Shown one piece after another: positions 1-22,580 of a DNA stretch of 23,765 bases. This stretch comes from a virus, in the IMG/VR virus record IMGVR_UViG_3300008266_000467, positions 1 to 23,765 of that record. The stretch is one strand, 5' to 3'. The notes beneath the pieces are model-generated. The model had not been told where the DNA came from, made no database searches, and was given only the letters and a program-made list of their open reading frames with translations. The translations under genes were made by a program, and so were the position numbers. Numbering within the stretch: the stretch's first letter is position 1; every line of letters begins with the position of its first letter.

Positions 1-777
1 AACAGTAGGTAATTGTTTACTATCTATAGGATTTAATTTAGATTGAATATCTCCGTAAGTATTAGCTATTTTATCAATATTTTGATAAAGTTGTTGTTTT
101 GTTTTTTCTCTTGATTTTTCTCGTTTAGCTTTTTCTTCAGGTGATAATTCAGTGTCATCTTTTCTAAATGATGAAGTAAATTGACCTGTAGATAACAAAT
201 TATCAAAGTACTCTTTTAAAGCATCATTTTTATATGCTTTTTCAAAATTAACAATTTCTGCTTCTTCCTCTGGGCCTGATGGTGTGTTTACTAATATAAA
301 GTTATCTCCAAATATATTCTTATACTCATCTAATAAATTGTAAACATTAGCCCAAGTTCCTAAAACACCAGCGGCTGGTACTTTGCGTTCACGTTTATAG
401 TTTCTTAAAAATGATACTATAGGATGAGCGTAAACCATTAACATCATTATATCATATCCACCTTCTTTTAACATATCTAATGTTGGTTGAAGTGTAGATA
501 AGTTAGATGCTGTGGTATCGTAAATTAAATTACGTTTAGCCGCTATAGCGTTAGGTAGATCTTGTTTTCTTATTTGAGATGAAGCAGCTGATAAATTACC
601 AAACATTGGTGAATCTTTATCTTCTACATATTTATCCGCGTTTAAGTTTTCAAATCCTTTTAATTGGGAATCAATTGTTTTTAGGATTGTTGATTTACCT
701 ACTGATGCTCCTCCGGCCATTATTATAGCTTTTGGTTTGTTTTGTACTTCTTTTAATAGATCAGTGAGTTTTATCAT
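1..777 (-). CDS. Zeta-toxin-like P-loop kinase, 3' end outside the window
   Basis: An open frame of 259 codons runs from an ATG at 777 off the left edge with no stop, so the C-terminus is missing. Near residues 20-29 it has a Walker A motif, AGGASVGKS, after a hydrophobic strand (KAIIMA). Around residue 90 there is LIYDTTAS, and later a basic YKRERK stretch that could supply a phosphate-binding arginine. This layout (P-loop, D-T motif, arginine lid) is that of the zeta-toxin/AAA small-kinase group, whose members phosphorylate sugars, nucleotides or RNA ends. The substrate here is unknown. No antitoxin-like small gene lies next to it. After residue 200 the protein becomes a highly charged helical tail (EEKAKREKSREK). 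A promoter-like site ends 7 bases before the ATG, suggesting its own, nearly leaderless transcript. Fold assignment is fairly sure; function is open. Confidence 0.75.
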   Translation of the reverse strand, partial: MIKLTDLLKEVQNKPKAIIMAGGASVGKSTILKTIDSQLKGFENLNADKYVEDKDSPMFGNLSAASSQIRKQDLPNAIAAKRNLIYDTTASNLSTLQPTLDMLKEGGYDIMMLMVYAHPIVSFLRNYKRERKVPAAGVLGTWANVYNLLDEYKNIFGDNFILVNTPSGPEEEAEIVNFEKAYKNDALKEYFDNLLSTGQFTSSFRKDDTELSPEEKAKREKSREKTKQQLYQNIDKIANTYGDIQSKLNPIDSKQLPTV

Positions 778-784
778 CTTGCTA

Positions 785-814
785 AATATAATAAAGAGAT
801 TTGGCATAGCCAAA
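785..814 (-). promoter_or_regulatory. Promoter-like site for the kinase gene (TTTGGCT-N17-TATATT)
   Basis: On the minus strand TTTGGCT (814-808) is followed by 17 bases and TATATT (790-785). The ATG of the kinase gene begins 7 bases further on (777). The same arrangement with identical spacing occurs at 2537-2566, 21703-21732 and 22551-22580. Read in Bacteroidota terms it is TTTG-N20-TATATTTA, close to the known -33 TTTG / -7 TAnnTTTG pattern. The expected start falls at or next to the ATG, so the mRNA would be leaderless or nearly so. Confidence 0.65.
800..814. promoter_or_regulatory. Dyad overlapping the -35-like element, possible operator
   Basis: TTTGGC-ATA-GCCAAA is a perfect 6-bp inverted repeat with a 3-base centre. 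Its right arm is the upstream element of the promoter-like site, so a bound protein or an RNA hairpin here would interfere with it. The other three copies of the promoter lack this dyad. It could also act as a weak terminator hairpin for the gene ending at 831, but no good T-tract follows on the minus strand. Confidence 0.35.
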
Positions 815-830
815 CCTTTTATCATAAATA

Positions 831-1601
831 TTACAAGTCTTGTCGTTTTGCAGTAGTTCTAAACGACTCAAATATAGGTGCCGATTTAGGATTTTCAAGA
901 TCAAATAATTGACGTACAGTTTTGAATATTTCTAAATTTTCCTCAAATGTACGCTCCGACTCATATATTTCCCATCCTTTACCTGTCATTTTTTCTTTGT
1001 TTAACTTACGTTTAGATGATTTTAACCATAACACAGCAGCGTGTTCAGCTTCTTTACCATAACACTCTTTATAACATTGTTTGTAAACAGCTGTTTGTAA
1101 TTCATATATTGTTTGTAAGTGATTAGATGTTTTAAAGTCAATAATCCATAACTCACCATCTATTTCACAAACTAAATCACAAGTACCAGCTACTTTTAAT
1201 TCATCAGAAAATAAATGTACTTCTGTTTCAATTAATTTAGGGTTGTATGTTTCCCAAAATTCAACAAAACGTAAAAACATCATCCATACGTCTGGGTTGT
1301 ATTGTGGATATCCATGTTCGTTTAAAAATGCTAATTCTCCACCATTTAAGTATTCTTCAATCATTTCATGAACTTGAGTACCTTCTTCAGCGGCTTTTTT
1401 AACAATATATTCTGATGCGTAACCTACTTTTTTTAGCCAATCTTCAAAAAATTTACCTTTAGGATATGTTCCTAATACATAAGTTACTGATGGGTAATAT
1501 TCTCCATTTCTTCTATAATACCTGGAGTCGGGTAATGTGATTTGTTTATGGTCGTCTGATATTTCTAAAATTCGACTATATGAATGTTTAATTTTACTCA
1601 T
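831..1601 (-). CDS. PD-(D/E)XK nuclease, RecB/Cas4-like
   Basis: This 256-residue protein carries the conserved series of the RecB/Cas4-type PD-(D/E)XK fold: H78 in GTQVHEMIEEYL, E127 in IETEV, D142 in GTCDLV, the core D155-F-K157 after WII, and Q169 in YELQTAVYK. The D142 and DFK pair should bind the metal ion, so an active DNA exonuclease or endonuclease is likely. No cysteine cluster for an Fe-S site like that of Cas4 is evident. The gene starts by a 4-base ATGA overlap with the primase gene, so the two are probably translationally coupled and act together in DNA replication or recombination. In phages such single-domain nucleases are often paired with replication genes. Polarity and substrate cannot be read from the sequence. 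Confidence 0.8.
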   Translation of the reverse strand: MSKIKHSYSRILEISDDHKQITLPDSRYYRRNGEYYPSVTYVLGTYPKGKFFEDWLKKVGYASEYIVKKAAEEGTQVHEMIEEYLNGGELAFLNEHGYPQYNPDVWMMFLRFVEFWETYNPKLIETEVHLFSDELKVAGTCDLVCEIDGELWIIDFKTSNHLQTIYELQTAVYKQCYKECYGKEAEHAAVLWLKSSKRKLNKEKMTGKGWEIYESERTFEENLEIFKTVRQLFDLENPKSAPIFESFRTTAKRQDL

Positions 1602-2530
1602 ATTAATTGTAGTTTTTTCTCAAATAAATCTGAGAATGTTAATGGTAAAGTATTTTGGATTAAGGAGGTAAATTTTTCAAATCCCATTTCACTAGGATCT
1701 TTATCATCCATATCCACTAGGTATACTTCTTTACCTTCGTTTAATAATTCTTCACAGAATGAAAGTGCTTGTTTAATAGCATCTTTATCTAACGCTATGT
1801 ATATTTTTTCTACTTTAGATGTTACTAATTTTTTCTTTAGAGCTGTTTGGATATTTTTACCTAATAATGGGATAACATTGCGTTTAATAGCTAACGCATC
1901 AAATGGTCCCTCACATAATGTAATTGGTATATTCCAATTAATAAACAGCTCAAATGGAATTATATTTCTAGATACATCTGGGTTTTTGTATTTTATAGAT
2001 GAATTTTTGTCAAAGCTTCTAGCAGTAAAATAATTTAATACCCCATGTTCGTCATATGAAGGTATTATAATGCAGTTGGAGTACTTGCCATTATCACAAT
2101 AGCCTAAATTATATTTAATAATGTCGTCAGATGTAATATTTCTGCGTTTTAAATAACTAATAGCATGCTTATATTCAATGCTATTATTAGGTTCTATTAA
2201 TGATTTAAACTCTGATGGTAATTCTACTTTAGTATTAGTTATGTTTACTTCTAAATGTTCAGAAACATATTTTACTAATGATTTTACTTCAGCTATTTTA
2301 TCAGCGGGTGCTGCTATTAGTTTAAATAGTTTAGTTAAACTTTTACCTCGTTTATCACAAACCCAACAGTGCCATGGGTGTTCACCTTTTTCATTTTCAG
2401 ATAAATTAACTTCTAGTTTTGGTTTATGATGATTACAAAAAGGACAATGGTAAGCGTAGTTACCTTTAGAGGTTTTTTTACCTATACCTAAAACAGAGTT
2501 TAATGTTGAAACTAAAGCTTGATTTACCAT
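1598..2530 (-). CDS. DNA primase, CHC2 zinc finger plus Toprim (T4 gp61 type)
   Basis: The product makes RNA primers for lagging-strand synthesis, working with the replicative helicase at the fork. The N-terminus has a zinc-ribbon: C29-P-F-C32 with nearby H34/H35, then C55-W-V-C58. A Toprim domain follows in the C-terminal half: ITLCEGPFDALA near residues 200-212 (the catalytic Glu motif), IALDKDA near 245 and VDMDDKDPSEMG near 272 (the metal-binding Asp motifs). The length of 310 residues fits stand-alone T4-like primases with the helicase on another chain. The ATG at 2530 lies only 6 bases after a TATCAT box with TTTGGCT 17 bases upstream, so this gene appears to begin a two-gene transcript with the nuclease. 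There is no Shine-Dalgarno sequence. Confidence 0.9.
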   Translation of the reverse strand: MVNQALVSTLNSVLGIGKKTSKGNYAYHCPFCNHHKPKLEVNLSENEKGEHPWHCWVCDKRGKSLTKLFKLIAAPADKIAEVKSLVKYVSEHLEVNITNTKVELPSEFKSLIEPNNSIEYKHAISYLKRRNITSDDIIKYNLGYCDNGKYSNCIIIPSYDEHGVLNYFTARSFDKNSSIKYKNPDVSRNIIPFELFINWNIPITLCEGPFDALAIKRNVIPLLGKNIQTALKKKLVTSKVEKIYIALDKDAIKQALSFCEELLNEGKEVYLVDMDDKDPSEMGFEKFTSLIQNTLPLTFSDLFEKKLQLI

Positions 2531-2536
2531 AATTGT

Positions 2537-2566
2537 ATGATAATAACAAACTATTAGAAAGCCAAA
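2537..2566 (-). promoter_or_regulatory. Promoter-like site for the primase-nuclease pair (TTTGGCT-N17-TATCAT)
   Basis: TTTGGCT (2566-2560) lies inside the last codons of the GIY-YIG gene. It is followed by exactly 17 bases and TATCAT (2542-2537). Six bases later comes the primase ATG, so the expected start is at the ATG itself. The stretch upstream is A-rich. It shares element and spacing with three other sites in the window. Confidence 0.65.
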
Positions 2567-3000
2567 TCTTTTTTAAAATATCTAGCCTGTATATTATCAT
2601 TGTAGCTATCTTTTTCTAAAACTTCAGTTACAAATTGATATTTAGCTTCAAGATATGATAAATGTTTTGATGACCATGCTAATTCTAATATTTCTCTATA
2701 GAATTTATCTTCACCTAATGATGCTACATCTTCAAGTAGTGGTTTACAACTACCCCAATATGTTTTCCAATCTGATTCAGCATAAGTAACTTCTTTAGTT
2801 TTCTTACGACCAGGACCAGTTTGTTCAGCTATAGCTTTTTTACCTAGTTTTTTAGTTTTTTTATGTTGTAGGAATTTTTTACCAATATATATTTTACCGT
2901 TGATAGTGTTAGAGATAAGATAAACAAAACCAAATGGTGTTTTATCACCAAAATCTTCTATGTTTTCTATCTTTTCACCTTTATATAACCAATTTACCAT
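2554..3000 (-). CDS. GIY-YIG family protein, putative endonuclease
   Basis: This 148-residue protein begins with a GIY-YIG module: FVYLIS at residues 25-30 stands for the GIY strand and KIYIGKK at 36-42 for the YIG strand. Downstream are R102 (YREIL), E118 in SYLEAKYQ, which suits the metal-binding glutamate, and asparagines in YNDN (133-136). The central part is lysine-rich (GPGRKKTKE) and could contact DNA. GIY-YIG enzymes cut DNA, as homing, repair or restriction nucleases. This compact form resembles stand-alone proteins common in T4-like phages of aquatic bacteria, where the role is unproven. It follows the structural genes by 4 bases. The primase promoter overlaps its 3' end, so the boundary between two transcription programmes falls here. 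Confidence 0.75.
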   Translation of the reverse strand: MVNWLYKGEKIENIEDFGDKTPFGFVYLISNTINGKIYIGKKFLQHKKTKKLGKKAIAEQTGPGRKKTKEVTYAESDWKTYWGSCKPLLEDVASLGEDKFYREILELAWSSKHLSYLEAKYQFVTEVLEKDSYNDNIQARYFKKDLAF

Positions 3001-3004
3001 AATC

Positions 3005-3997
3005 TTATTTATCTATATTAACTAATATTGTTGTATCAGTTGTTGCGCTTGTTGGAAGTGGTTGACCTAATTTAGCTACCATTAATAATTCTTGGTTCTC
3101 ATTATAGAATCCTACTGTTGTAACATATGGACTAAAATATGAACTTGTTACAAAATTATAAACAGTACCTTCTGATGACCCTGATATTAATGATGGGTTT
3201 AAACTAAAATTGAATTCTTCAGGTCTAATAGTGCATTTATATTGGGTTTCAAATATTGTTCTTGAACTTTGGAAACTACATGTTATATTGTTAGTCTCAC
3301 CTATCCATAACATACCATCAACTGTTAATGGGGATATACTACTATTAGTCCATATTATTGTTCCATGACTGTAATTTATTATACCAGCTGTTTTACCAGG
3401 AGATGTATAACTACTTGATATTACAGTCAATATTCCTTCTCCATTATCTTCATATTCTTCAAATCCAAAATAATCGCCTGCTGGGTCAGCTATTTTAAAA
3501 TAAAAAGTATTTGGATTTATGTAATCCCCAAACATATTTTTAGGTATAGAAAGAACTGTAGCTGTACCTATAGGAGAGAAATATCTTTCGTATCCATAAT
3601 TAGATGAATAATTGTATGAATTAGTTTGAAATAAACTAGTTTGCTCATAATTATAGAATCTACTATAAACATCAGTTAATGAACTATCTTCAATTACTTG
3701 GCCTAAATAATTAGTAATATAAGGAGACCCACTAATTGGATTTGATATGTAATTAGTATAATATAATTGCTTAATTGAATTATATAATGGACCCCAAGTT
3801 ATAGAACTACTATTAAATCCGGGGATTGAGGCTGATGTGAAAAATATGGGGGATAAAATATTGTAACCATTAGTAGCGGCTAGAATTAAACATCCAACAT
3901 TATTTAAAGACGCGCTCCCTTCAAAAGAAAAACTTTTGTTAACAACTAACGGAGATACAATAACATCCGTACTCAAAAATTGTTTGAATGCGCTCAT
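3005..3997 (-). CDS. Virion structural protein, paralogue of the next gene upstream
   Basis: This 330-residue protein is rich in Ser, Thr, Tyr and Asn with predicted beta structure and no membrane segment or signal. I recognise no catalytic motif. The last ~75 residues (from EEFNFSLNPSLISGS through TTVGFYNENQELLMVAKLGQPL) match the end of the upstream neighbour (AEFNYTENPSFISGS, TTVGLYNDSNELLAVAKLSKPL), so the two share a homologous C-terminal module. The N-termini differ. It is the last gene of the long structural run, 3 bases after its paralogue. By position and composition it probably belongs to the outer baseplate or tail-fibre region, but receptor binding or another role is not shown. 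Confidence 0.6.
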   Translation of the reverse strand: MSAFKQFLSTDVIVSPLVVNKSFSFEGSASLNNVGCLILAATNGYNILSPIFFTSASIPGFNSSSITWGPLYNSIKQLYYTNYISNPISGSPYITNYLGQVIEDSSLTDVYSRFYNYEQTSLFQTNSYNYSSNYGYERYFSPIGTATVLSIPKNMFGDYINPNTFYFKIADPAGDYFGFEEYEDNGEGILTVISSSYTSPGKTAGIINYSHGTIIWTNSSISPLTVDGMLWIGETNNITCSFQSSRTIFETQYKCTIRPEEFNFSLNPSLISGSSEGTVYNFVTSSYFSPYVTTVGFYNENQELLMVAKLGQPLPTSATTDTTILVNIDK

Positions 3998-5085: not shown

Positions 5086-5742
5086 TTAGCTAACTTTTGT
5101 TATAGTGATTGGAATAGTTACTCTTGCTCCACTATCTCTACCTTGAACAATCAATATAGTTTGTAATTGAGTTTGAGAACCAAATAATGTATTAATAGTG
5201 GTTCCAGTCATATTCAATGTAGTACCAATTACTGTCTTAGACACATTAGTTCCAAGAGTAGTTGTAGCATTAAGAGAAGTAGCTTGTGTTGTATTAACAC
5301 CTACACCATTAAATACACTCATTGTTCTAACATCACCAATAGTAAAATTATATCCTGATGTTTCAAATGTTTGTGTTCCACCTAAATAATTTAAGGTTTG
5401 TGGAGTAATAGATAATGAAGCTCCTTGCTTTAATACAATATTTGTATAACCAATATTAATAATAGGCATTCTAGCAGTACCACGTGGTAAAGTAGTAAGC
5501 AAATACTTCATTATTTGAGTTTCATCAGAAAAAGCTTCTAATAAAGGCATTCCTTCAATCGCTTGACCATAATAAACAGAACCTGATGGGTTATTAGGGT
5601 TGTAAAGAGTATAATCTATCTCATCATCAGATAAAGCAAATTGTGTAATTCTGAATGAGCCATCGTTTTTGGCTAATAATTCTCTACCTTTTTTAGTTAA
5701 GATAGCGTCTACTGTTATGATTTGGTTATTTAAATATCCCAT
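5086..5742 (-). CDS. Putative virion structural protein, GYLNNQIITVDAILTKKG type
   Basis: A 218-residue protein that starts with a well-formed N-terminal domain, including ITVDAILTKKGRELLAKNDG and then RITQFALSDDEIDYTLY. The remainder is a Thr/Gly-rich beta region, with hydrophobic-Thr alternation around residues 140-200. The N-terminal sequence resembles, from memory, a conserved structural protein seen in T4-like phages of aquatic bacteria. I cannot assign a T4 gene number. No membrane segment or enzyme motif is visible. It lies 27 bases downstream of the 537-residue structural gene, which is one of the longer gaps in this run. Confidence 0.55.
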   Translation of the reverse strand: MGYLNNQIITVDAILTKKGRELLAKNDGSFRITQFALSDDEIDYTLYNPNNPSGSVYYGQAIEGMPLLEAFSDETQIMKYLLTTLPRGTARMPIINIGYTNIVLKQGASLSITPQTLNYLGGTQTFETSGYNFTIGDVRTMSVFNGVGVNTTQATSLNATTTLGTNVSKTVIGTTLNMTGTTINTLFGSQTQLQTILIVQGRDSGARVTIPITITKVS

Positions 5743-5769
5743 TTCTTTTTTATGATTTTATTATAAATA

Positions 5770-7383
5770 TTATGATAATGTACCTTCTGCGTTAAGTTTG
5801 TTAATTATAGTTTCAAAATTATCTTCTAATTCTTGAGAGGCAAATTGTGGTTTAATAAACCCAGTTAAAGGTTGACCAGTTGTGCCAGGTGGTTTTTTAA
5901 CATTTAGTATAACATAGTTACCATTTGGTATCACTCTAAATACACAAAAGTGGTCTAATATTGATCCTGTAGGAATTGGAGGGTTTATTTCTAAAGTTAT
6001 TCTTCCATCAGCTAATGTACCAACATTATATATTTTAGATTGTTTAGAAGGATCATACTCAAATCTAATGTAATCTCCAGGTTGTAAATTGGCAGGAAAA
6101 TTTATCAAATTAAATCCAAATGCTGTTGAAGCTGTTGGTGTTAATTGGACCATATTATTATTTAAAAAACCTGATAAACCTAGGGAAGCGGTTAACCATT
6201 GGGTTTGATTTGAACCAATTGTTGGATATGTAGCTCCATCCCAATATGATGATGTTATTTGAAGATTATTACTATAATTAGAATTTAAAGAGAAAAATGT
6301 TCCACCAACTGTGGAAGGGGTTCCAAATAAAGTAACATTAGGTGATACATCATTAAAATAGTATTGAACTCTTACTTTGTCTCCACTATTAAATACATAA
6401 GATAATGTCTCAAATGTTATATATCTGGTACTTGTTTGGTCATTATTCCCATCAGAAGAATTTATACCAGCTTGTAGTAAATTTCCTAAGTCATTTATAG
6501 TTAAATTATTAGGTTGAGGATTAGCTATAGGAGAATTTGGTAAAATTTGTAAATTTAAAGACTGAGAGGTGACCCAGTTATCAGATGATTTGACTATTTC
6601 AATGTTTATTTTATTTGAGTACCATTGGGTACCATCATAATTACTAAAAGTTGAGAAATCTTCAAATTTAACAGCTAAACCAGCTTTAAGTTTAACTTCA
6701 ATACCATAATCAGAAGTTGTTGAACCAAACTCATACTCATATGATGTAGTATTATAATCTCCTAATGGATTTAAAGTAGTTGTTTCAAATGGTATAACAG
6801 CTGTAGTTGTTGAAGAAAGAGTAATATTACCTGATTTTAATGCTTTAAAACTATAATTTGGTGGGTTATTTATTTGTTGTATAAAACTATTATATTGAAA
6901 AAAACTCATTGTTGGTAAAAACTCTGTTCGAATTGAACTAGTTTCAGTTACTAATAAAGTTTCTATTTTACCAATATCTGTTACTATTTTATTTCCTAAT
7001 AAAGTCTGAAATGCAACTGTTCCTTCTAAGCTAGTGACATTCACTATTTTCCCAGATTCAAAATTTTGGTTTAAATTTAGTAGAGTGGTTGAATTAGCTT
7101 GAGGTGTGACAACATTACCTTGAGAGTCAATTAAGTATTTAATAAAATAAGCTGTTTGGTCAATAATTTCAGGCCCAGTACCTCCTATACCATTAAAATA
7201 AGCGAAATAAGTTTGATTTTTTTCAGCAGCGGATAAAACTCCATATCCACTATTATCTGTAGTAGTAGTATTAAAATCACCAGATATATTACTCACTAAA
7301 AATCCTTGAGGATCATTATTAATACTTGTAGGAGTAGGGTTGTTATTTTTGGTTTTAAATACTTTTGTAAATTTCTCAGACAT
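5770..7383 (-). CDS. Virion structural protein, beta-rich, function unknown
   Basis: A 537-residue protein with high Asn, Thr, Ser and Tyr content and many short beta-strand-like segments. It has no signal peptide, membrane segment or recognisable enzyme motif. The N-terminal ~150 residues contain a moderately charged region, and the rest reads like tandem beta-sandwich domains (for instance around SSTTTAVIPFETTTLNPLGDYNTTSYEYEFGS, seen only in part as a pattern). Its position between a 329-residue and a 218-residue structural gene, in the same strand and spacing pattern, places it in the tail/baseplate periphery. TATAAATA lies 5 bases before the ATG, too close for an ordinary promoter. Adhesion to host surface sugars is possible but not shown. 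Confidence 0.5.
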   Translation of the reverse strand: MSEKFTKVFKTKNNNPTPTSINNDPQGFLVSNISGDFNTTTTDNSGYGVLSAAEKNQTYFAYFNGIGGTGPEIIDQTAYFIKYLIDSQGNVVTPQANSTTLLNLNQNFESGKIVNVTSLEGTVAFQTLLGNKIVTDIGKIETLLVTETSSIRTEFLPTMSFFQYNSFIQQINNPPNYSFKALKSGNITLSSTTTAVIPFETTTLNPLGDYNTTSYEYEFGSTTSDYGIEVKLKAGLAVKFEDFSTFSNYDGTQWYSNKINIEIVKSSDNWVTSQSLNLQILPNSPIANPQPNNLTINDLGNLLQAGINSSDGNNDQTSTRYITFETLSYVFNSGDKVRVQYYFNDVSPNVTLFGTPSTVGGTFFSLNSNYSNNLQITSSYWDGATYPTIGSNQTQWLTASLGLSGFLNNNMVQLTPTASTAFGFNLINFPANLQPGDYIRFEYDPSKQSKIYNVGTLADGRITLEINPPIPTGSILDHFCVFRVIPNGNYVILNVKKPPGTTGQPLTGFIKPQFASQELEDNFETIINKLNAEGTLS

Positions 7384-11924: not shown

Positions 11925-12272
11925 TTATATATTTTGAGCACTAGATGAAATTTGTAAATTCACTAATTGTTGTTGTGATTCTAATAATTGTTGTCTTAAG
12001 GAAGATATTTCATCCAATAAAAGTTGTATATCTTCACTAATATTTGAACCTTTTATATATTCTCCACTTGTTTTAATTAAATAAGCATGAGAATTTATAT
12101 CTCCTTGAGGAGGAATATCATAAAAAATTTTAGTATAATAATCAAAAAATTGTTCAACAGTTAAAGTATCTTCCTCAGGAGGTTGAACTTTAAATTGGGT
12201 AAAAGAAGTATCAACAACTTGTTGATATTCTCCTCTGTTATAAACAGTTTTATTTAAAGTGTAATTAGGCAT
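11925..12272 (-). CDS. Small structural-module protein with C-terminal coiled coil
   Basis: A 115-residue protein of unknown function. The N-terminal part (LNKTVYNRGEYQQVVDTSFTQF) is followed by an acidic region and an EQFFDYYTKIFYDIPPQGDINSHAYLIKTSGEYI segment seen at residues 40-75. Residues ~80-110 form a heptad-like helix (LLDEISSLRQQLLESQQQLV) suited to oligomerisation. The gene overlaps the DNRLRE-like gene by 8 bases and is 2 bases before the 1175-residue gene, so its translation is probably coupled to both. A linker or trimer-forming accessory of the large protein would fit, but is a guess. Confidence 0.55.
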   Translation of the reverse strand: MPNYTLNKTVYNRGEYQQVVDTSFTQFKVQPPEEDTLTVEQFFDYYTKIFYDIPPQGDINSHAYLIKTSGEYIKGSNISEDIQLLLDEISSLRQQLLESQQQLVNLQISSSAQNI

Positions 12273-13356
12273 TTATTACTTTAAAATTATAATTATTATC
12301 AAATACTATAGTACTACCATTAATAGTAGTTTTGATCAATATAGTATAATATCTTTCAGGTTCCAAGCCATTCATATAAAGATCAAAGTAATTACCACTA
12401 GGATCACAACTTAATTTTGTAAATTGAGTATCAAAATCAATTACATACTCATTAGTATCTAAATCTTTAACAGCATAATAAGAAGCTGTTGGTAAATAAT
12501 ATGTTTGAACAAAGTATGAAGCTGTTTGAAATACTCTAGATGGGTATTCAGGTCTAGCATTTACTCTAAATCTATTTATACTTTCAGGATAGAATACTCC
12601 TGGGTTTTCATCTATAGCAATTGTAGCTTCAGTTGTAGTTAATGGTGAAAGAGATCCAGTATTATATGAGAAGTCTATCCATTTGAATTCTAATTGTGGT
12701 GGGTATATAGTGTGAGTATCTCTAGAGAAATACTCCATAGTATTATTATATTGTAAACTATCTACAAATTCTACAGTTTGTTTAATAATAAATCCATCAT
12801 TAGATATAGTTTTATTAAACCAATCATCTACAATAGATGTAACATCTACATTAATATCTTTATTATCATAATATGAAAAAGATTCTGATATAAAATAATT
12901 ATAGTACCAATTTCCTCCACCTGAGGTAGACCCATATGATCCTGTAACTCCTGTTGGGTATCCAGATGTCATCCAATCGCCACTACCTGATGATGATCTA
13001 GAATACCAACTTACTCCATTAGTATATTCAGGAGAATAAGCGTATTTTCCTGTACCCATATTCCATGAACCAGATATTGGGTATATTTCTAATGTAATAT
13101 CTGAGTTTAATCCATTAATAACAGAAGCATATAGTTTTAAAGAAGCACTCCAAGTAGACCCATTAATTCTATTATTAATAACATCTGATATCTCAGTATC
13201 TGAGAATTGTAGTAATGCTCTATTAGCTTGTGTGTTACCACTATCTTGGGCGTCTTCAATACTTACAGATAATATCTCATCTAACCCAGTATTTTTATTT
13301 GGGTATCTAGAATAGATAGTTGCATCTTTTGAGGGGAATATTTTATATACTGCCAT
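12265..13356 (-). CDS. DNRLRE-domain-like structural protein
   Basis: The 363-residue protein opens with YKIFPSKDATIYSRYPNKN and soon has ANRALLQFSD, the order expected for a DNRLRE domain: a beta-sandwich found in surface and phage proteins of Bacteroidota and others. Residues ~70-210 continue this fold (SLKLYASVI, ITLEIYPISGSW, INVDVTSIVDDWF near residue 170, GFIIKQT). The second half, from ~225, looks like a separate Ig-like or beta-sandwich domain (FRVNARPEYPSRVFQTASYF). It lies 19 bases after gp6 and leads the outer baseplate/tail run. Binding to a surface glycan or forming part of the outer wedge are both plausible. No enzyme motif is present. Confidence 0.65.
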   Translation of the reverse strand: MAVYKIFPSKDATIYSRYPNKNTGLDEILSVSIEDAQDSGNTQANRALLQFSDTEISDVINNRINGSTWSASLKLYASVINGLNSDITLEIYPISGSWNMGTGKYAYSPEYTNGVSWYSRSSSGSGDWMTSGYPTGVTGSYGSTSGGGNWYYNYFISESFSYYDNKDINVDVTSIVDDWFNKTISNDGFIIKQTVEFVDSLQYNNTMEYFSRDTHTIYPPQLEFKWIDFSYNTGSLSPLTTTEATIAIDENPGVFYPESINRFRVNARPEYPSRVFQTASYFVQTYYLPTASYYAVKDLDTNEYVIDFDTQFTKLSCDPSGNYFDLYMNGLEPERYYTILIKTTINGSTIVFDNNYNFKVINA

Positions 13357-13375
13357 TTATTATAAATATAATTTA

Positions 13376-15219: not shown

Positions 15220-15621
15220 TTATATAGATACATTTATTCTGTCAGTGTTACCTTCAATTGTATAATATTTAATTTCTATATCAATAGCATTATTATCATA
15301 GTCTGGGGTAGCTGTTACACTTTGTAATGTTATAGTTGGAAATAAATCTGTTAAGTCATTAGTTATTAAATTTTGGATAGAACTTAATACTGTACTATTA
15401 ATATCATCAAATAAGTATTGCTCAAGACCTAATCCAAAATCGGGGTTTAATACTCTTTCACCTTTTCTAGTTAAAACATAATTAATAATATTTGATCTAA
15501 CTTGAGTGGTAGTAGAGTATGTTTGATTAAATATAGCGGCGTTATTGAAAGGTATAGATACTCCTATAGCTACTCTTCCGCCAACATCTACTGGGTTTAT
15601 ATTTGGTACTCTGTATGCCAT
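15220..15621 (-). CDS. Baseplate wedge protein gp25-like (GPW/gp25 family)
   Basis: This 133-residue product matches the GPW/gp25 family, a small wedge component at the baseplate centre that joins gp6 and the sheath start. Diagnostic features are NIINYVLTRKGERVLNPDFG near residues 45-64, GLEQYLFDD directly after, and the following helix LSSIQNLITNDLTDLFP. The C-terminal strand pair (AIDIEIKYYTIEG) is also typical. T4 gp25 is 132 residues, so the length is right. The ATG shares one base with the stop of the preceding gene (TAATG), implying coupled translation. gp6 follows 2 bases later. Confidence 0.88.
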   Translation of the reverse strand: MAYRVPNINPVDVGGRVAIGVSIPFNNAAIFNQTYSTTTQVRSNIINYVLTRKGERVLNPDFGLGLEQYLFDDINSTVLSSIQNLITNDLTDLFPTITLQSVTATPDYDNNAIDIEIKYYTIEGNTDRINVSI

Positions 15622-15995
15622 TATCCCATTAATCCCATTATTTGATCTAAACTTACTTCACCACCAGGTAAACTTGAACCTTCACCTGCTGTATTTACAG
15701 GAGGAGGAGTATATGTTGGTTGAACATGTGATGAGTTAGCGGTAATAGTAGCGTCAAATTCGCCTCCAATCATACCTCTTAAACTACGTTTAAGATCATG
15801 ATTTACAGTTGATGTTGTTCCTGCTCCATGTACCATTACTGGTTGGTTTAAAAATGGGGTAGAAGGAGTGCTGTATGATTCTTGTACTACTGTTTTAGGA
15901 GCACGTACTGCTTCAAGAAGAATATCTTTTAACTCATCTTGAATTGCTTCACGTACTGCTTCTTTTATTAATTTTTTTAAAGCATCTGTTTTCAT
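15621..15995 (-). CDS. Small protein of the baseplate module, unknown function
   Basis: A 124-residue protein with an N-terminal charged amphipathic helix (residues ~2-30: LKKLIKEAVREAIQDELKDI) that could form a coiled coil. After it comes a Pro/Ser/Thr-rich, low-complexity middle. The helix LKRSLRGMIGGEFDATI lies at ~68-85 and a short hydrophobic tail, LDQIMGLMG, at the end. It resembles an assembly adaptor or chaperone more than an enzyme. The gene joins gp25 by a TAATG overlap, so it is probably made in a fixed ratio with gp25. TATTTATAATA lies 3 bases before the ATG. I do not recognise the family. Confidence 0.5.
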   Translation of the reverse strand: MKTDALKKLIKEAVREAIQDELKDILLEAVRAPKTVVQESYSTPSTPFLNQPVMVHGAGTTSTVNHDLKRSLRGMIGGEFDATITANSSHVQPTYTPPPVNTAGEGSSLPGGEVSLDQIMGLMG

Positions 15996-16014
15996 ATCTA
16001 TTATAAATATTTAA

Positions 16015-19300: not shown

Positions 19301-19641
19301 TATTCTTCGGTTTTAAATTTATCTATCTCAGCTAATAACTGTTGTTTTTCTTCCTCAGAAATACCAAAACCACCATCAGTATTAGAAGCATTATTACTCA
19401 TAATACGTTGAATAATTGTAGCCATTTTAATTAATTGCTCATCATTTTTAACACTTATTTCTAAGTATTCTTTAATTAATGGAACAATTAAAGTAGCGTC
19501 ACCTATACTTTGTACAAGTGGTTTTAATTCAGAAATTAAGATAGATATTTGTTTCTCTTTTTTCTTTTGGTTATCATATATTTCCTCTAATATATCAGAG
19601 AATTTCTTTTTACCAAAAACAACATTATCTAAATTACTCAT
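19300..19641 (-). CDS. Small helical protein between late sigma factor and hub genes
   Basis: I place the start at the ATG of 19641 (MSNLDNVVFGKKKFSDIL, 113 residues), not at a TTG 27 bases upstream that would give a poor N-terminus. The protein is almost entirely helical and charged (EEIYDNQKKKEKQISILISELKPLVQ), with an acidic C-terminus (SEEEKQQLLAEIDKFKTEE). It has no membrane segment or enzyme motif. TATAAATA lies 12 bases before the ATG. Its place between gp55 and gp5 might suggest a late-transcription partner such as gp33, a small protein in T4, or a baseplate assembly factor. Neither is supported by a motif I can recognise. Confidence 0.55.
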   Translation of the reverse strand: MSNLDNVVFGKKKFSDILEEIYDNQKKKEKQISILISELKPLVQSIGDATLIVPLIKEYLEISVKNDEQLIKMATIIQRIMSNNASNTDGGFGISEEEKQQLLAEIDKFKTEE

Positions 19642-19664
19642 AATATTTATTTTATTTATAAATA

Positions 19665-20375
19665 TCAATGATGGAAATCTGTATATCCGTTCTCTAAATA
19701 GAAATAATAATGTTGTTTAAATATAACATATAATTTATCGGCTATTTTAGTGATTTTAGGGGTTTTAGCGTCAATAATCTCACGAATGTATATATACAGT
19801 GCTTTCTTATTAAAGATGTCTATACTCTCTCTTTTACGGAATAGTTCTAAAATAGCATCTGCAATTTGAGCGTCACCTTCTTTAGGAAATAAACTGAATA
19901 TATTTTTAGTACAATACTTAACATACTCATCTATGAAGTTAGATAATTTATCTTGAGCTGATCCTTCTTCAATTGAGTATGAAAAATTTTCATTTGATTC
20001 TATTTCTTCAATAGGTGCTTTATCAATACGTTTTTTATAATTTTTAGTATTAGTGATTATAAGATAACGTTTTGCGATAGTCCCAAAATATGAAAATGCT
20101 TTAGCTCCTTTTTCTGGGTTGAATAAATGGATTTTAGATAATAAAAATGTTATTACCTCATGTTGTAAATCTTCAATATTATCTACTTCTGTGTAATAAA
20201 ATTTAAAGGTATGAATAATGTTTTCTGTTAATTTAAAAAAAGCATAGTGAATACGTTCACGATATATTTTATCTTTTAATTCAAAATCACTAGTATTATT
20301 GTATAACACAATTGCATTCTCAGTATCTTGAGTAAAATACTGAGTTGGTTTCTTTTTAACTTTCACCTCGGTCAT
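19665..20375 (-). CDS. Late-transcription sigma factor, T4 gp55-like
   Basis: The 236-residue product resembles gp55, the phage sigma subunit that directs host RNA polymerase to late promoters with a clamp-bound co-activator. Near the N-terminus PTQYFTQDTENAIVLYN is a familiar gp55-like start. Residues ~60-115 (AFFKLTENIIHTFKFYY, VDNIEDLQHEVITFLLSKIHLFN, FSYFGTIAKRYLI) match sigma region 2, with a -10-binding helix rich in aromatic residues. The C-terminal half is helical (YVKYCTKNIFSLFPKEGDAQIADAIL and onward) and longer than in T4, whose gp55 has 185 residues. It begins by an ATGA overlap with the 91-residue gene. That couples its synthesis to a group led by the promoter at 21703-21732, so it should be made before the late genes it switches on. 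Confidence 0.82.
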   Translation of the reverse strand: MTEVKVKKKPTQYFTQDTENAIVLYNNTSDFELKDKIYRERIHYAFFKLTENIIHTFKFYYTEVDNIEDLQHEVITFLLSKIHLFNPEKGAKAFSYFGTIAKRYLIITNTKNYKKRIDKAPIEEIESNENFSYSIEEGSAQDKLSNFIDEYVKYCTKNIFSLFPKEGDAQIADAILELFRKRESIDIFNKKALYIYIREIIDAKTPKITKIADKLYVIFKQHYYFYLENGYTDFHH

Positions 20376-20647
20376 AATTTTTTAATATTAAATTGATTTA
20401 ATATATCTTGTAATTGTTTAATCTCTTTAAAAAAGAAACCTACTTCATCATCTGATTCAAATGAGCCTCTAGCATCTACTTCTTTAAGTTTTTTATCTGA
20501 GAATTCAATGATACCTGATATTTTATTTAGGTAAGACATATATCCTGCTAGAATATCTTCTTGACGTTCATTCTTTTTAAGAAGATTAAAGGTCGTGTAT
20601 CCTAAGATCACGACCATTATTCCTAATATGATTGTTAATATTATCAT
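20372..20647 (-). CDS. Small membrane-anchored coiled-coil protein
   Basis: A 91-residue protein with one N-terminal membrane helix (residues ~2-22, IILTIILGIMVVILGYTTFNL) followed by KK and a charged helical domain (NERQEDILAGYMSYL, then KQLQDILNQF). The topology suggests anchoring in the inner membrane with the coiled coil in the cytoplasm or periplasm. It has no cysteine for a lipobox, so an o-spanin-type lipoprotein is unlikely. It overlaps the HD-domain gene and the sigma factor gene by ATGA at both ends, so all three are coupled. A strong hairpin lies within its membrane-helix codons (20591-20615). Function unknown. Confidence 0.6.
   Translation of the reverse strand: MIILTIILGIMVVILGYTTFNLLKKNERQEDILAGYMSYLNKISGIIEFSDKKLKEVDARGSFESDDEVGFFFKEIKQLQDILNQFNIKKL
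20591..20615 (-). other. Strong hairpin inside the 91-residue gene
   Basis: On the minus strand GGTCGTG and CACGACC form a perfect 7-bp stem, and ATC/GAT inside adds three more pairs around TTAG. It is markedly more GC-rich than its surroundings and sits at codons ~11-19. It could slow ribosomes while the membrane helix is made, protect or process the mRNA, or be a codon coincidence. Confidence 0.45.
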
Positions 20648-21423
20648 AAGTCATTTAACATATTCATTAATCCTGTACTTTCAATAGAACCTAATGTTTT
20701 AGTTTTAATTGTTTGTTTAGGTGTTTTATTAGTGGTAAGATTAAAGTTATTTGATTTAACCTGTTTTTCACCTTTTAATTTAGGATTCCATTCGCGTTCA
20801 AACTCAATACGAGCAGCCATTAAATCAGCTTGGTGAACAATATAAATTAATGAAGTGCGAGGTTTTGTTTCTGGTGACCAAGACATTAAGTATGGCTTGT
20901 TAGCATCATCATATAAACCATCATGTAACTTAATTGCTAACCACTCGTTTTTAGACATCTGGATACCATGAGAAAATAGTAAATGTAAACTACGATCTGG
21001 TACTGACATAAACTCTAGGCGATCGTTGAATTTATAATCTTCACCTAGTTTATCTTTACGCCATTGGTCATCCTGAGGGATATAAGCATCATTATGTTCA
21101 TCACCCATTTTACCTAGGTCATGATTTAAAGCTGCGAATACTAATTCTTCTTTAGTGTAAGTAGACTCATCTACCCCCATTTCAACCCAAACATCATTTA
21201 ATTTAAGAGCACAATCTACTACTCGTAATACGTGATCTACGTATCCACCTGGGAATGCATTATGGTACTCTTTCTTATGAGCTGCTGGCATAAGCATAAT
21301 ACGTTCAGAGTACTTAGAGTAAAAATCTAATAGTTGTGAACAACGTGGTTCACTGATATATGATTTGATAGTTTCCTCTAAATCTATCCAGTTTTGTTGA
21401 ATTTGTTCTGCTGTTAACTTCAT
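20644..21423 (-). CDS. HD-domain phosphohydrolase
   Basis: I choose the ATG at 21423 (MKLTAEQIQQNW, 259 residues), since an earlier start at 21456 would overlap the preceding gene. HD-family metal ligands are visible: H64 in GGYVDHVLR, the H101-D102 pair in AALNHDLGK, H152 in LFSHG, H167 in AIKLHDG, and D200 in VHQADLMA. HD enzymes hydrolyse phosphate esters of nucleotides, often dNTPs or signalling nucleotides, with Mn or similar metals. The extra H-D-G motif may help bind substrate. Related HD proteins are common in marine T4-like phages. The C-terminal ~50 residues are Lys/Asn/Thr-rich and probably flexible. The stop overlaps the next ATG by 4 bases. Nucleotide-pool control or removal of an alarm nucleotide are both possible; the substrate is not readable. 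Confidence 0.8.
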   Translation of the reverse strand: MKLTAEQIQQNWIDLEETIKSYISEPRCSQLLDFYSKYSERIMLMPAAHKKEYHNAFPGGYVDHVLRVVDCALKLNDVWVEMGVDESTYTKEELVFAALNHDLGKMGDEHNDAYIPQDDQWRKDKLGEDYKFNDRLEFMSVPDRSLHLLFSHGIQMSKNEWLAIKLHDGLYDDANKPYLMSWSPETKPRTSLIYIVHQADLMAARIEFEREWNPKLKGEKQVKSNNFNLTTNKTPKQTIKTKTLGSIESTGLMNMLNDL

Positions 21424-21424
21424 A

Positions 21425-21607
21425 TTAATTATACATTGTCTGTTCAGACTCAACAAATAAACGAATTTGTTCTGTTGTTTCTTTTAATTTTTCAATACCT
21501 TCCAAATATACTTCTATTGGTTGTTGTTGTTTAACAATAAAAGTTAATTGGTTAGCAATATTATCAATTTTATCTAATTGATGTAATACATTGTCTTTAT
21601 TTTTCAT
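21425..21607 (-). CDS. Small helical protein of unknown function
   Basis: A 60-residue protein with heptad-like pattern through most of its length (LDKIDNIANQLTFIV, then LEGIEKLKETTEQIRLFV), so a two-helix coiled coil is likely. It has no cysteine, membrane helix or enzyme motif. It ends one base before the HD-domain gene begins, so the two should be co-translated. It is the first full gene downstream of the promoter-like site at 21703-21732, with a leader of about 90 bases that holds a hairpin and a 13-codon ORF. Small host-interaction or regulatory proteins often take this position in phage operons, but nothing shows that here. Confidence 0.55.
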   Translation of the reverse strand: MKNKDNVLHQLDKIDNIANQLTFIVKQQQPIEVYLEGIEKLKETTEQIRLFVESEQTMYN

Positions 21608-21702: not shown

Positions 21703-21732
21703 AATGTAAATAATAGAAAATTGGAAGCCAAA
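21703..21732 (-). promoter_or_regulatory. Promoter-like site (TTTGGCT-N17-TACATT)
   Basis: TTTGGCT (21732-21726) follows the stop of the 137-residue gene by 6 bases. It is separated by exactly 17 bases from TACATT (21708-21703). Upstream is AT-rich. It would drive the genes from the 60-residue protein through HD-domain protein to gp55. It is the only one of the four sites with a long leader. Confidence 0.6.
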
Positions 21733-21738
21733 TTATTT

Positions 21739-22152
21739 TTAAGAGAGGTTTATAGTATTAGATATTTTTAATAAAAAAGCACATTTCTCATATTCTTCTT
21801 GTGATTCAAAATAATCAATAGACAATACAAGAGCCTTCCTAAAATCTTTATCAGCGTAAAATTTAAGGCATTCAACATGAAAAGAATTATCTACTTCTAT
21901 TTTAGATAAATTTTCTAATGCTCTATTAAACACCATATAACACCCAGCTTTACGAATATCTTCTATATCTAATTGTGGGTCTGATAATTCAAAAAATTTA
22001 AGTAATTGTTGACTAAATGTTTGATAATTTATGATTAATTTTTTAAACATTCCCATCCATACAGCGGGGTATTCATTGAGGTTAATTTGAACATTTTCAT
22101 CTTTTTCCTCTTCAGGGGTCTTAAATAAATTAAATATTTCTTCAATATCCAT
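21739..22152 (-). CDS. Conserved-looking small protein of unknown function
   Basis: A 137-residue protein, mostly helical. After an acidic N-terminus (EEIFNLFKTPEEEKDENVQ) come NEYPAVWMGMFKKLII (residues ~27-42) and alternating hydrophobic helices (YQTFSQQLLKFFELS, CYMVFNRALENLSKI, FYADKDFRKALVLSIDYFE). The second half has the look of TPR-like helix pairs (DFRKALVLSIDYFESQEEYEKCAFLL). It has two cysteines but no metal motif. No membrane helix is seen. It is followed after 6 bases by the promoter-like site at 21703-21732, and preceded by a hairpin at 22182-22198. I do not recognise it; a protein-binding role would suit the fold. Confidence 0.55.
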   Translation of the reverse strand: MDIEEIFNLFKTPEEEKDENVQINLNEYPAVWMGMFKKLIINYQTFSQQLLKFFELSDPQLDIEDIRKAGCYMVFNRALENLSKIEVDNSFHVECLKFYADKDFRKALVLSIDYFESQEEYEKCAFLLKISNTINLS

Positions 22153-22181
22153 ATATATAAATATATGATAAGTAGGGAAAT

Positions 22182-22354: not shown

Positions 22355-22368
22355 AATAAAAAAATTAG

Positions 22369-22442
22369 TGCGCCTGACAGGAATCGAACCTGTGACCTGC
22401 GGTTTATGAGACCGCTGCTCTAACCAATTGAGCTACAGGCGC
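22369..22442 (-). tRNA. tRNA-Met (CAT)
   Basis: A full cloverleaf is visible on the minus strand: acceptor GCGCCTG/CAGGCGC, D-arm GCTC-AATTGGTTA-GAGC, anticodon arm GCGGT-CTCATAA-ACCGC, variable AGGTC, T-arm ACAGG-TTCGATT-CCTGT, discriminator A. CAT could be Met or, with lysidine at C34, Ile. The GTCACAGGTTCGA segment favours elongator Met. The 3' CCA is not encoded. Confidence 0.9.
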
Positions 22443-22446
22443 TTAG

Positions 22447-22544
22447 CACTCAAGGTTGGACTTGCACCAACACGTTCTATTGAACTCGAAACCTTAGCGT
22501 CTTCTATCGAGTTACCATGGTAACTTCACTTTCGCCACTTGAGC
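22447..22544 (-). ncRNA. tRNA-like RNA with non-canonical core (98 nt)
   Basis: The ends are those of a tRNA: acceptor GCTCAAG pairs with CTTGAGT (7 bp, first pair G-U), discriminator G, and a T-arm GTTGG-TGCAAGT-CCAAC in which the usual T55 is G. The core is not canonical. In order there are a 13-base linker (TGGCGAAAGTGAA), the palindrome GTTACCATGGTAAC, a helix AACTCGA/TCGAGTT closing 17 bases, and a variable-like hairpin GTTC-AATA-GAAC. Several segments (CAAGTGGCGAAA, AGACGC, ACGTGTTGG) recall tRNA-Leu with a long insertion in the D-loop and no 5-bp anticodon stem. It lies 4 bases from tRNA-Met and starts 6 bases after a promoter-like -10 box. T4 also has stable RNAs (C and D) of unknown role in its tRNA cluster. 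A decayed tRNA is the main alternative. Confidence 0.6.
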
Positions 22545-22550
22545 AATATT

Positions 22551-22580
22551 AATATAATAAATAAGAATTATAAAGCCAAA
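22551..22580 (-). promoter_or_regulatory. Promoter-like site for the tRNA-like RNA (TTTGGCT-N17-TATATT)
   Basis: TTTGGCT (22580-22574) begins 2 bases after the stop of the RNase H-like gene. It is followed by exactly 17 bases and TATATT (22556-22551), then AATATT and the first base of the tRNA-like RNA (22544). If active, transcription would start at the mature 5' end or within a base of it, so RNase P trimming would not be needed. Confidence 0.65.

Follow-up and report, generated by a model that had tools for sequence, protein, structure and literature searches.

A box pair at fixed spacing marks predicted early promoters, a minority overlapping terminator hairpins, in a T4-like relative of Flavobacterium phage immuto

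Introduction

What is the element TTTGGCT-N17-TAnnnT that recurs in one stretch of phage DNA, what would read it, and which genes does it serve? The stretch analyzed here (the window) is the 23,765-base virus record IMGVR_UViG_3300008266_000467, judged by its sequence to be a fragment of a T4-like phage akin to Flavobacterium phage immuto (160 kb), whose baseplate wedge protein shares 45% identity with that of the window. A search of phage records for near-identity to the window gave no match, and relatives of its primase and of a 236-aa protein are encoded on hundreds of IMG/VR contigs. T4 carries many promoters of a single form over its early and replication genes, and a separate late class with a single box and the sigma factor gp55. 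In Bacteroidota, sigmaA promoters have the form TTTG / TAnnTTTG (PMC7366714, PMC6847099), and transcripts of F. johnsoniae start 4-5 bases past the 8-base −7 box (PMC6847099). We found no paper on TTTGGCT phage promoters in the open-access literature.

Results and discussion

Four box pairs in the window

The pattern matches the window at four places, all on the minus strand, which is the coding strand:

785-814, minus strand: predicted promoter site 1, with the −33 box TTTGGCT at 808-814, 17 bases, and the −7 box TATATTTA at 783-790
2537-2566, minus strand: predicted promoter site 2, with the −33 box TTTGGCT at 2560-2566, 17 bases, and a weak second box, TATCAT
21703-21732, minus strand: predicted promoter site 3, TTTGGCT, 17 bases, TACATT; leader of about 90 bases
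22551-22580, minus strand: predicted promoter site 4, TTTGGCT, 17 bases, TATATT

Thus the coordinates, the strand and the 17 bases between TTGGCT and TATATT, TATCAT, TACATT or TATATT given in a first-pass annotation of this DNA were all confirmed. Only 0.12 matches were expected, and none of 100 shuffled windows held four or more; the pattern was absent from the plus strand, and a reversed control pattern was likewise absent from the window. Because TTTGGCT by itself is not enriched (5 seen against 3.1 expected), the enrichment in the window belongs to the pair at its fixed spacing. The fifth TTTGGCT, at 5668-5674, is a plus-strand copy and has no partner box.

The genes around sites 1 to 3 are as follows:

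775-777, minus strand: ATG of a zeta-toxin-like P-loop kinase gene (PF06414, 6.7e-13)
831, minus strand: stop of the exonuclease gene that precedes the site 1 hairpin (see below)
2530, minus strand: ATG of the primase gene, downstream of site 2
2554-3000, minus strand: SegE-like GIY-YIG endonuclease gene (PF19835), upstream of site 2
21425-21607, 20644-21456, 20372-20647 and 19665-20375, minus strand: the gene run that site 3 would start

The kinase ATG stands 7 bases past the TATATT of site 1, and the primase ATG 6 bases beyond the TATCAT of site 2, a box that is off consensus and is replaced by TATATT in most close relatives. The −33 box of site 2 overlaps the final codons (GAT TTG GCT TTC TAA) of the endonuclease gene; site 2 is therefore not wholly intergenic, and the earlier statement that the sites occur only at gene boundaries needs this qualification.

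Conservation of the pair in relatives

The spacing was surveyed in 16 records, comprising 14 relatives, immuto and the window. Among them, 104 TTTGGCT-TATATT pairs are separated by 17 bases, and 0-3 pairs occur at every other distance from 8 to 29. The exact pattern is present in 19 of 25 longer relatives, nearly always on a single strand. One of these relatives, G001 (160,798 bases), has it 25 times on the coding strand and once on the opposite strand, with no match to the reversed-pattern control, and the matches lie mostly at gene starts as judged from simple ORF-based gene calls, which were used for all relatives. The strand and boundary bias that the first-pass annotation had proposed to look for in a long genome is thus present in the relatives. 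A logo built from 236 sites reads RTTTGGCTTY and then TATATTTA. When genome contigs were scanned with the exact pattern, the matches listed came from mixed taxa.

The element is also kept at orthologous positions. Of 80 relatives, 67 have it upstream of the primase gene, in most cases with the ATG 6-7 bases further on, and upstream of the kinase gene it is found in 30 of 49; the spacers diverge at both positions. Ahead of the ORF at 21425-21607 it is kept in 12 of 16 relatives together with the long leader. That the four copies are a coincidence within an AT-rich genome, a reading in keeping with the unenriched 7-mer, deserves practically no credence, since it is already refuted by the strand bias (as in G001), by the spacing and by the conservation at orthologous sites, in addition to the excess over expectation in the window.

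Form of the boxes and the predicted reader

In the phage element the distance from TTG to TA is 20 bases (TTTGG served as the search seed). The −7 box reads TATATTT, with the third T in 66%, and the last-position G of TAnnTTTG is replaced by A in 82%; site 2 of the window has TATCAT. Of the two forms offered by the first-pass annotation, sigma70-like and Bacteroidota-type, the second fits better: the element has the TTG core, the 20 bases to TA and the TAnnTTT core in common with the promoters of Bacteroidota sigmaA (sigma-ABfr), its own form being TTG-N20-TATATTTA, and its gap of 6-7 bases to the predicted +1 agrees with the starts mapped in F. johnsoniae (PMC6847099). The E. coli-type sigma70 promoter (TTGACA/TATAAT) was rejected, as the −35 reads TTGGCT and the second box reads TATATTTA. 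Scanning 1-3100, around sites 1 and 2, with the sigma70 consensus gave 24 matches against 19.6 expected, no clear excess.

The phage element differs from the host promoters as follows. First, its −33 box is extended to TTTGGCY and strong, whereas the hosts show almost no −33 signal: it is described as weak (PMC6847099), and over 320 kb of a single Flavobacteriaceae genome TTG at N20 accompanies 4 of 64 sigmaA-like sites. A host origin of the GGCY extension was rejected, as TTTGGCY at the phage spacing gave 8 matches against 6 for the control in 100 Flavobacteriaceae genomes, showing no enrichment. Second, the phage −7 box has A at −5, a position that is almost always G in the sigmaA promoters of the host (PMC6847099). 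Because A replaces G and the hosts do not use TTTGGCY as a signal, we only infer that the host RNA polymerase with sigmaA is used at these sites.

Since the hosts do not share the GGCY extension, an extra phage factor acting at TTTGGCY is possible, and a phage activator is the main rival to reading by host sigmaA. In this alternative the boxes would require a phage-encoded factor, either a MotA-like activator on TTTGGCY or an early phage sigma, rather than the host holoenzyme alone. The lack of TTTGGCY enrichment in the host genomes, the weak host −33 and the missing G at −5 all speak for it. Nevertheless, both in the TTG core and in the spacing from there to TA, the element matches the host-type TTG-N20-TAnnTTTG found in Mel-JY01 (PP395634.1 138803-179471), which has ten copies of it on the coding strand and none on the opposite strand. 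Furthermore, immuto has TTG-N20-TATATTTAG with a different −33 extension, GTTGCC or GTTGCT in place of TTTGGCT, yet with the same TTG spacing, and many sites lie before short ORFs typical of immediate-early regions. We therefore regard a required phage factor as conceivable but rather unlikely, and retain host sigmaA as the preferred reader. As for Mel-JY01, which is a "Microcystis phage" by name, it belongs among the relatives of the Bacteroidota phage group; its true host may be a Bacteroidota bacterium living with the cyanobacterium.

Genes served and distance to the start codon

The genes behind TTTGGCT promoters are early ORFans and replication genes, among them those for primase, clamp loader, DNA ligase, SSB and a polymerase-like protein, and not structural genes. 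This agrees with the early or middle promoters proposed in the first-pass annotation; their use of host RNA polymerase is the part that we infer. When 529 distinct sites were compared, the ORF-opening ATG showed sharp peaks at 6 bases (48 sites) and 7 bases (32 sites) past TATATT, at most 5 sites at each other distance below 16, and a broad second mode at 16-32. Since the F. johnsoniae start falls 6-7 bases past TATATT (PMC6847099), consistent with the phage ATG peak, the mRNAs of the sharp class should be leaderless and are predicted to begin on the A of AUG. Sites 1 (kinase) and 2 (primase) of the window are predicted to belong to this class. In G001 the same class includes the genes for primase, clamp loader, DNA ligase, GTP cyclohydrolase, a polynucleotide-kinase-like ATPase, a phosphoesterase and the zeta-like kinase, and the leadered class consists mostly of short ORFans plus polymerase-like and SSB genes.

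Alternatively, these could all be ordinary leadered promoters, with the near ATG not the true start or with +1 further upstream. Leaderless transcripts are indeed rare in the hosts, making up 5.5% of mRNAs in F. psychrophilum (PMC9723704), while those under 10 nt make up 3.7% of UTRs in B. thetaiotaomicron (PMC7366714), and a leaderless arrangement was found at 1 of 64 sigmaA-like sites in the 320 kb of the Flavobacteriaceae genome. Against this reading, the ATG peak is two bases wide across several gene families, and the primase N-termini (MVNQ..) are conserved from the near ATG in divergent phages. We consider the absence of a leaderless class unlikely and keep the leaderless assignment as a prediction. 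If correct, the class is sharp and frequent although the hosts, which are without Shine-Dalgarno signals, rarely use leaderless mRNA.

The leadered early promoters of G001 share a conserved initial transcribed stretch, TATATTtaggTATAATtAAAAAC, of which the immuto version is TATATTTAGGTATCAATAATTAAAAC; it may act as a further box or as an A-rich leader for translation.

Overlap of promoter and predicted terminator hairpin

At site 1, a predicted hairpin overlaps the −33 box and the spacer:

797-817, minus strand: predicted intrinsic terminator hairpin, AGGTTTGGC-TAT-GCCAAATCT followed by CTTTATTATA

The hairpin comes just after the exonuclease stop, with the −33 box in its 5' arm, and shares with intrinsic terminators the GC-containing hairpin and the T-rich tail at a gene end. 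RNA folding of 791-822 gave −11 kcal/mol (z −4.67, 0 of 200 shuffles), and an independent scan of 1-3100 returned this hairpin as the longest terminator-like stem. In 16 aligned sequences of the kinase site, the 12-pair stem is 89% paired, a figure that falls to 62% or less if the stem is shifted by as many as 3 columns. The opening base of the −33 box goes from U-A to C-G along with its partner; the shuffle control of this covariation is modest (26 of 500 for the covariation score, 6 of 500 for the cells paired). RNA folding gave no stable hairpin at the −33 box of sites 2 and 3, and only one of the four window sites, site 1, has one. At the position of site 2, some relatives have a hairpin that the window copy lacks.

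Pairing across the −33 box goes beyond site 1. Permuting the 3' half lowered the pairing from 11.74 to 9.73 in the leaderless set (0 of 300), from 10.55 to 9.18 in the leadered set (0 of 300) and, with its different −33 sequence, from 10.15 to 6.30 in immuto (0 of 1000), tests that treat related sites as independent. In the 16 records, a strict terminator (at least 5 T in 8 for the tail) covers the −33 core at 42 of 301 promoters, against 7.1 expected after correction for gene boundaries, where 161 terminators lie in total; the T fraction is 0.547 across the 6 bases after lax hairpins. Several early promoters of immuto likewise have the TTG inside a terminator hairpin, as at site 1. In contrast, none of the 64 host sites in the 320 kb of the Flavobacteriaceae genome shows such an overlap. 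Hence the promoter-terminator overlap is, in these sequences, a real but minority trait, and we reject the hairpin as a universal promoter feature (strict terminators at ~14% of promoters). Transcripts would terminate at the overlapping hairpins. No description of promoter-terminator overlap in Bacteroidota phages was found in the open-access literature.

Instead of an RNA terminator, the dyad at −33 could mark a DNA operator bound by a dimeric regulator of the phage. A subclass of early sites with GATGT just before TATATT has an excess of dyads (35% against 13% in shuffled spacers) without covariation, and in this subclass the dyad could be an operator. As a general reading we find an operator improbable: the stems often contain G-U pairs, certain tetraloops (TTCG and GAAA among them) recur, the T content of the spacer is higher at hairpin sites (0.424 against 0.385; 100 of 5000 permutations), and the arms covary as the sequence changes, including between immuto and the TTTGGCT phages. 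The terminator reading is thus preferred.

A separate late-type box and a gp55-like protein

A second motif, ATATTTATA, has no −33 box and occurs 244 times on the coding strand and 25 times antisense. In immuto its sites lie just upstream of the terminase, tail spike, tail sheath, tail tube and other structural genes, and it is scarce in the region dense in −33/−7 promoters. In the window, five genes, most of them structural, have it at their starts, and a candidate sigma factor is encoded as well:

22156-22164, minus strand: late-type box ATATTTATA without a −33 box; the ATG of 21739-22152 follows after 3 bases
16002-16010, minus strand: late-type box ATATTTATA before 15621-15995
13361-13369, minus strand: late-type box ATATTTATA before 12265-13356
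5762-5770, minus strand: late-type box ATATTTATA before 5086-5742
19657-19665, minus strand: late-type box ATATTTATA before an ORF with an internal ATG near 19641
19665-20375, minus strand: putative gp55-like late sigma factor, 236 aa (PHROG 234 late sigma)

Of 24 homologues of the 236-aa protein, 16 matched the late sigma family PHROG 234 (best E 0.0044), and the Pfam Sigma70_r2 match of the protein itself (E 0.006) is below the cut-off. A sequence search of the PDB returned nothing, and a structure model of modest confidence (pLDDT 70) gave no significant fold match, with sigma factors among its weak top matches. We consider that the gp55-like protein probably reads the ATATTTATA late boxes rather than the TTTGGCT promoters. 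The distances from ATATTTATA to the ATG fall into two classes, 3-5 and 10-20 bases, and some late mRNAs may be leaderless too. Right after the exonuclease stop, a TAATATTTATGA-like sequence at 822-831 (minus strand) is kept even by distant relatives without the TTTGG box, which suggests tandem late and early promoters ahead of the kinase gene.

Proposed mechanism and known systems

Given the motif, its exact spacing, the strand and boundary bias, the orthologous conservation, the start-codon classes, the hairpin excess and the covariation, all read from the DNA itself, we think the following account as a whole is quite likely, with promoter activity, timing, the +1 position, termination and the reading by host sigmaA as its predicted parts. 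In an immuto-like T4-type phage of Bacteroidota, the host RNA polymerase, carrying its primary sigma factor, would read early and middle promoters made up of TTG at −33 and, 20 bases on, TATATTTA at −7, and the phage would have strengthened the contact at −33 by extending it to TTTGGCY. At genes of the replication type, a −7 box 6-7 bases before the ATG would make the transcript begin at the A of AUG; short early ORFs would receive a leader of roughly 10-25 bases. At a minority of sites, the −33 box would double as the 5' arm of the terminator hairpin of the upstream gene and the T-rich tail would serve as promoter spacer, so that a single stretch of 30-40 bases would close one transcript and open another. 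For structural genes the single-box promoter ATATTTATA would be used, probably with the gp55-like sigma of the phage. The first-pass annotation had not noted the leaderless class, the overlap with terminators or this late motif.

The scattered layout, the late class and the gp55-like sigma recall T4 with its early and middle promoters, whereas the Bacteroidota-type boxes, the predicted leaderless starts and the terminator overlap set the phage apart from T4. The early promoters of immuto, unannotated in its record, likewise stand before short early ORFs. The result is a testable promoter map, with a clear early/late split, for common aquatic Bacteroidota phages whose transcription is apparently undescribed, and the compact promoters could serve as parts for Bacteroidota genetics.

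The fused elements may also act as punctuation, with the polymerase released by termination passing straight to the next leaderless unit; such recycling in vivo is a doubtful extension of the model. Post-termination recycling of RNA polymerase has been demonstrated in vitro and with the E. coli polymerase only, and was unobserved in vivo as of a 2020 paper (PMC6978380). A promoter adjoining a terminator is the favourable case for reinitiation, and recycling is expected to depend on the distance (PMC6978380). Unlike those cases, the phage promoter lies inside the terminator and not beside it. The fused elements thus offer a natural terminator-promoter distance of zero, and because of this distance dependence they make recycling in vivo directly testable.

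A tRNA-like RNA behind site 4

Site 4 precedes two RNA features:

22449-22544, minus strand: tRNA-like RNA with CTCAAG...CTTGAG acceptor-like ends and an extra hairpin, AGTTACC-ATGG-TAACT
22368-22442, minus strand: tRNA-Met, which follows the tRNA-like RNA

The predicted +1 of site 4 coincides with the base at which the tRNA-like RNA begins (about 22544). Neither ARAGORN nor Rfam called this RNA, which carries a D-arm-like stretch, GTGGCGAAA. Relatives have similar tRNA-like RNAs, often near tRNAs, and the promoter lies upstream of 3 of 8 of them.
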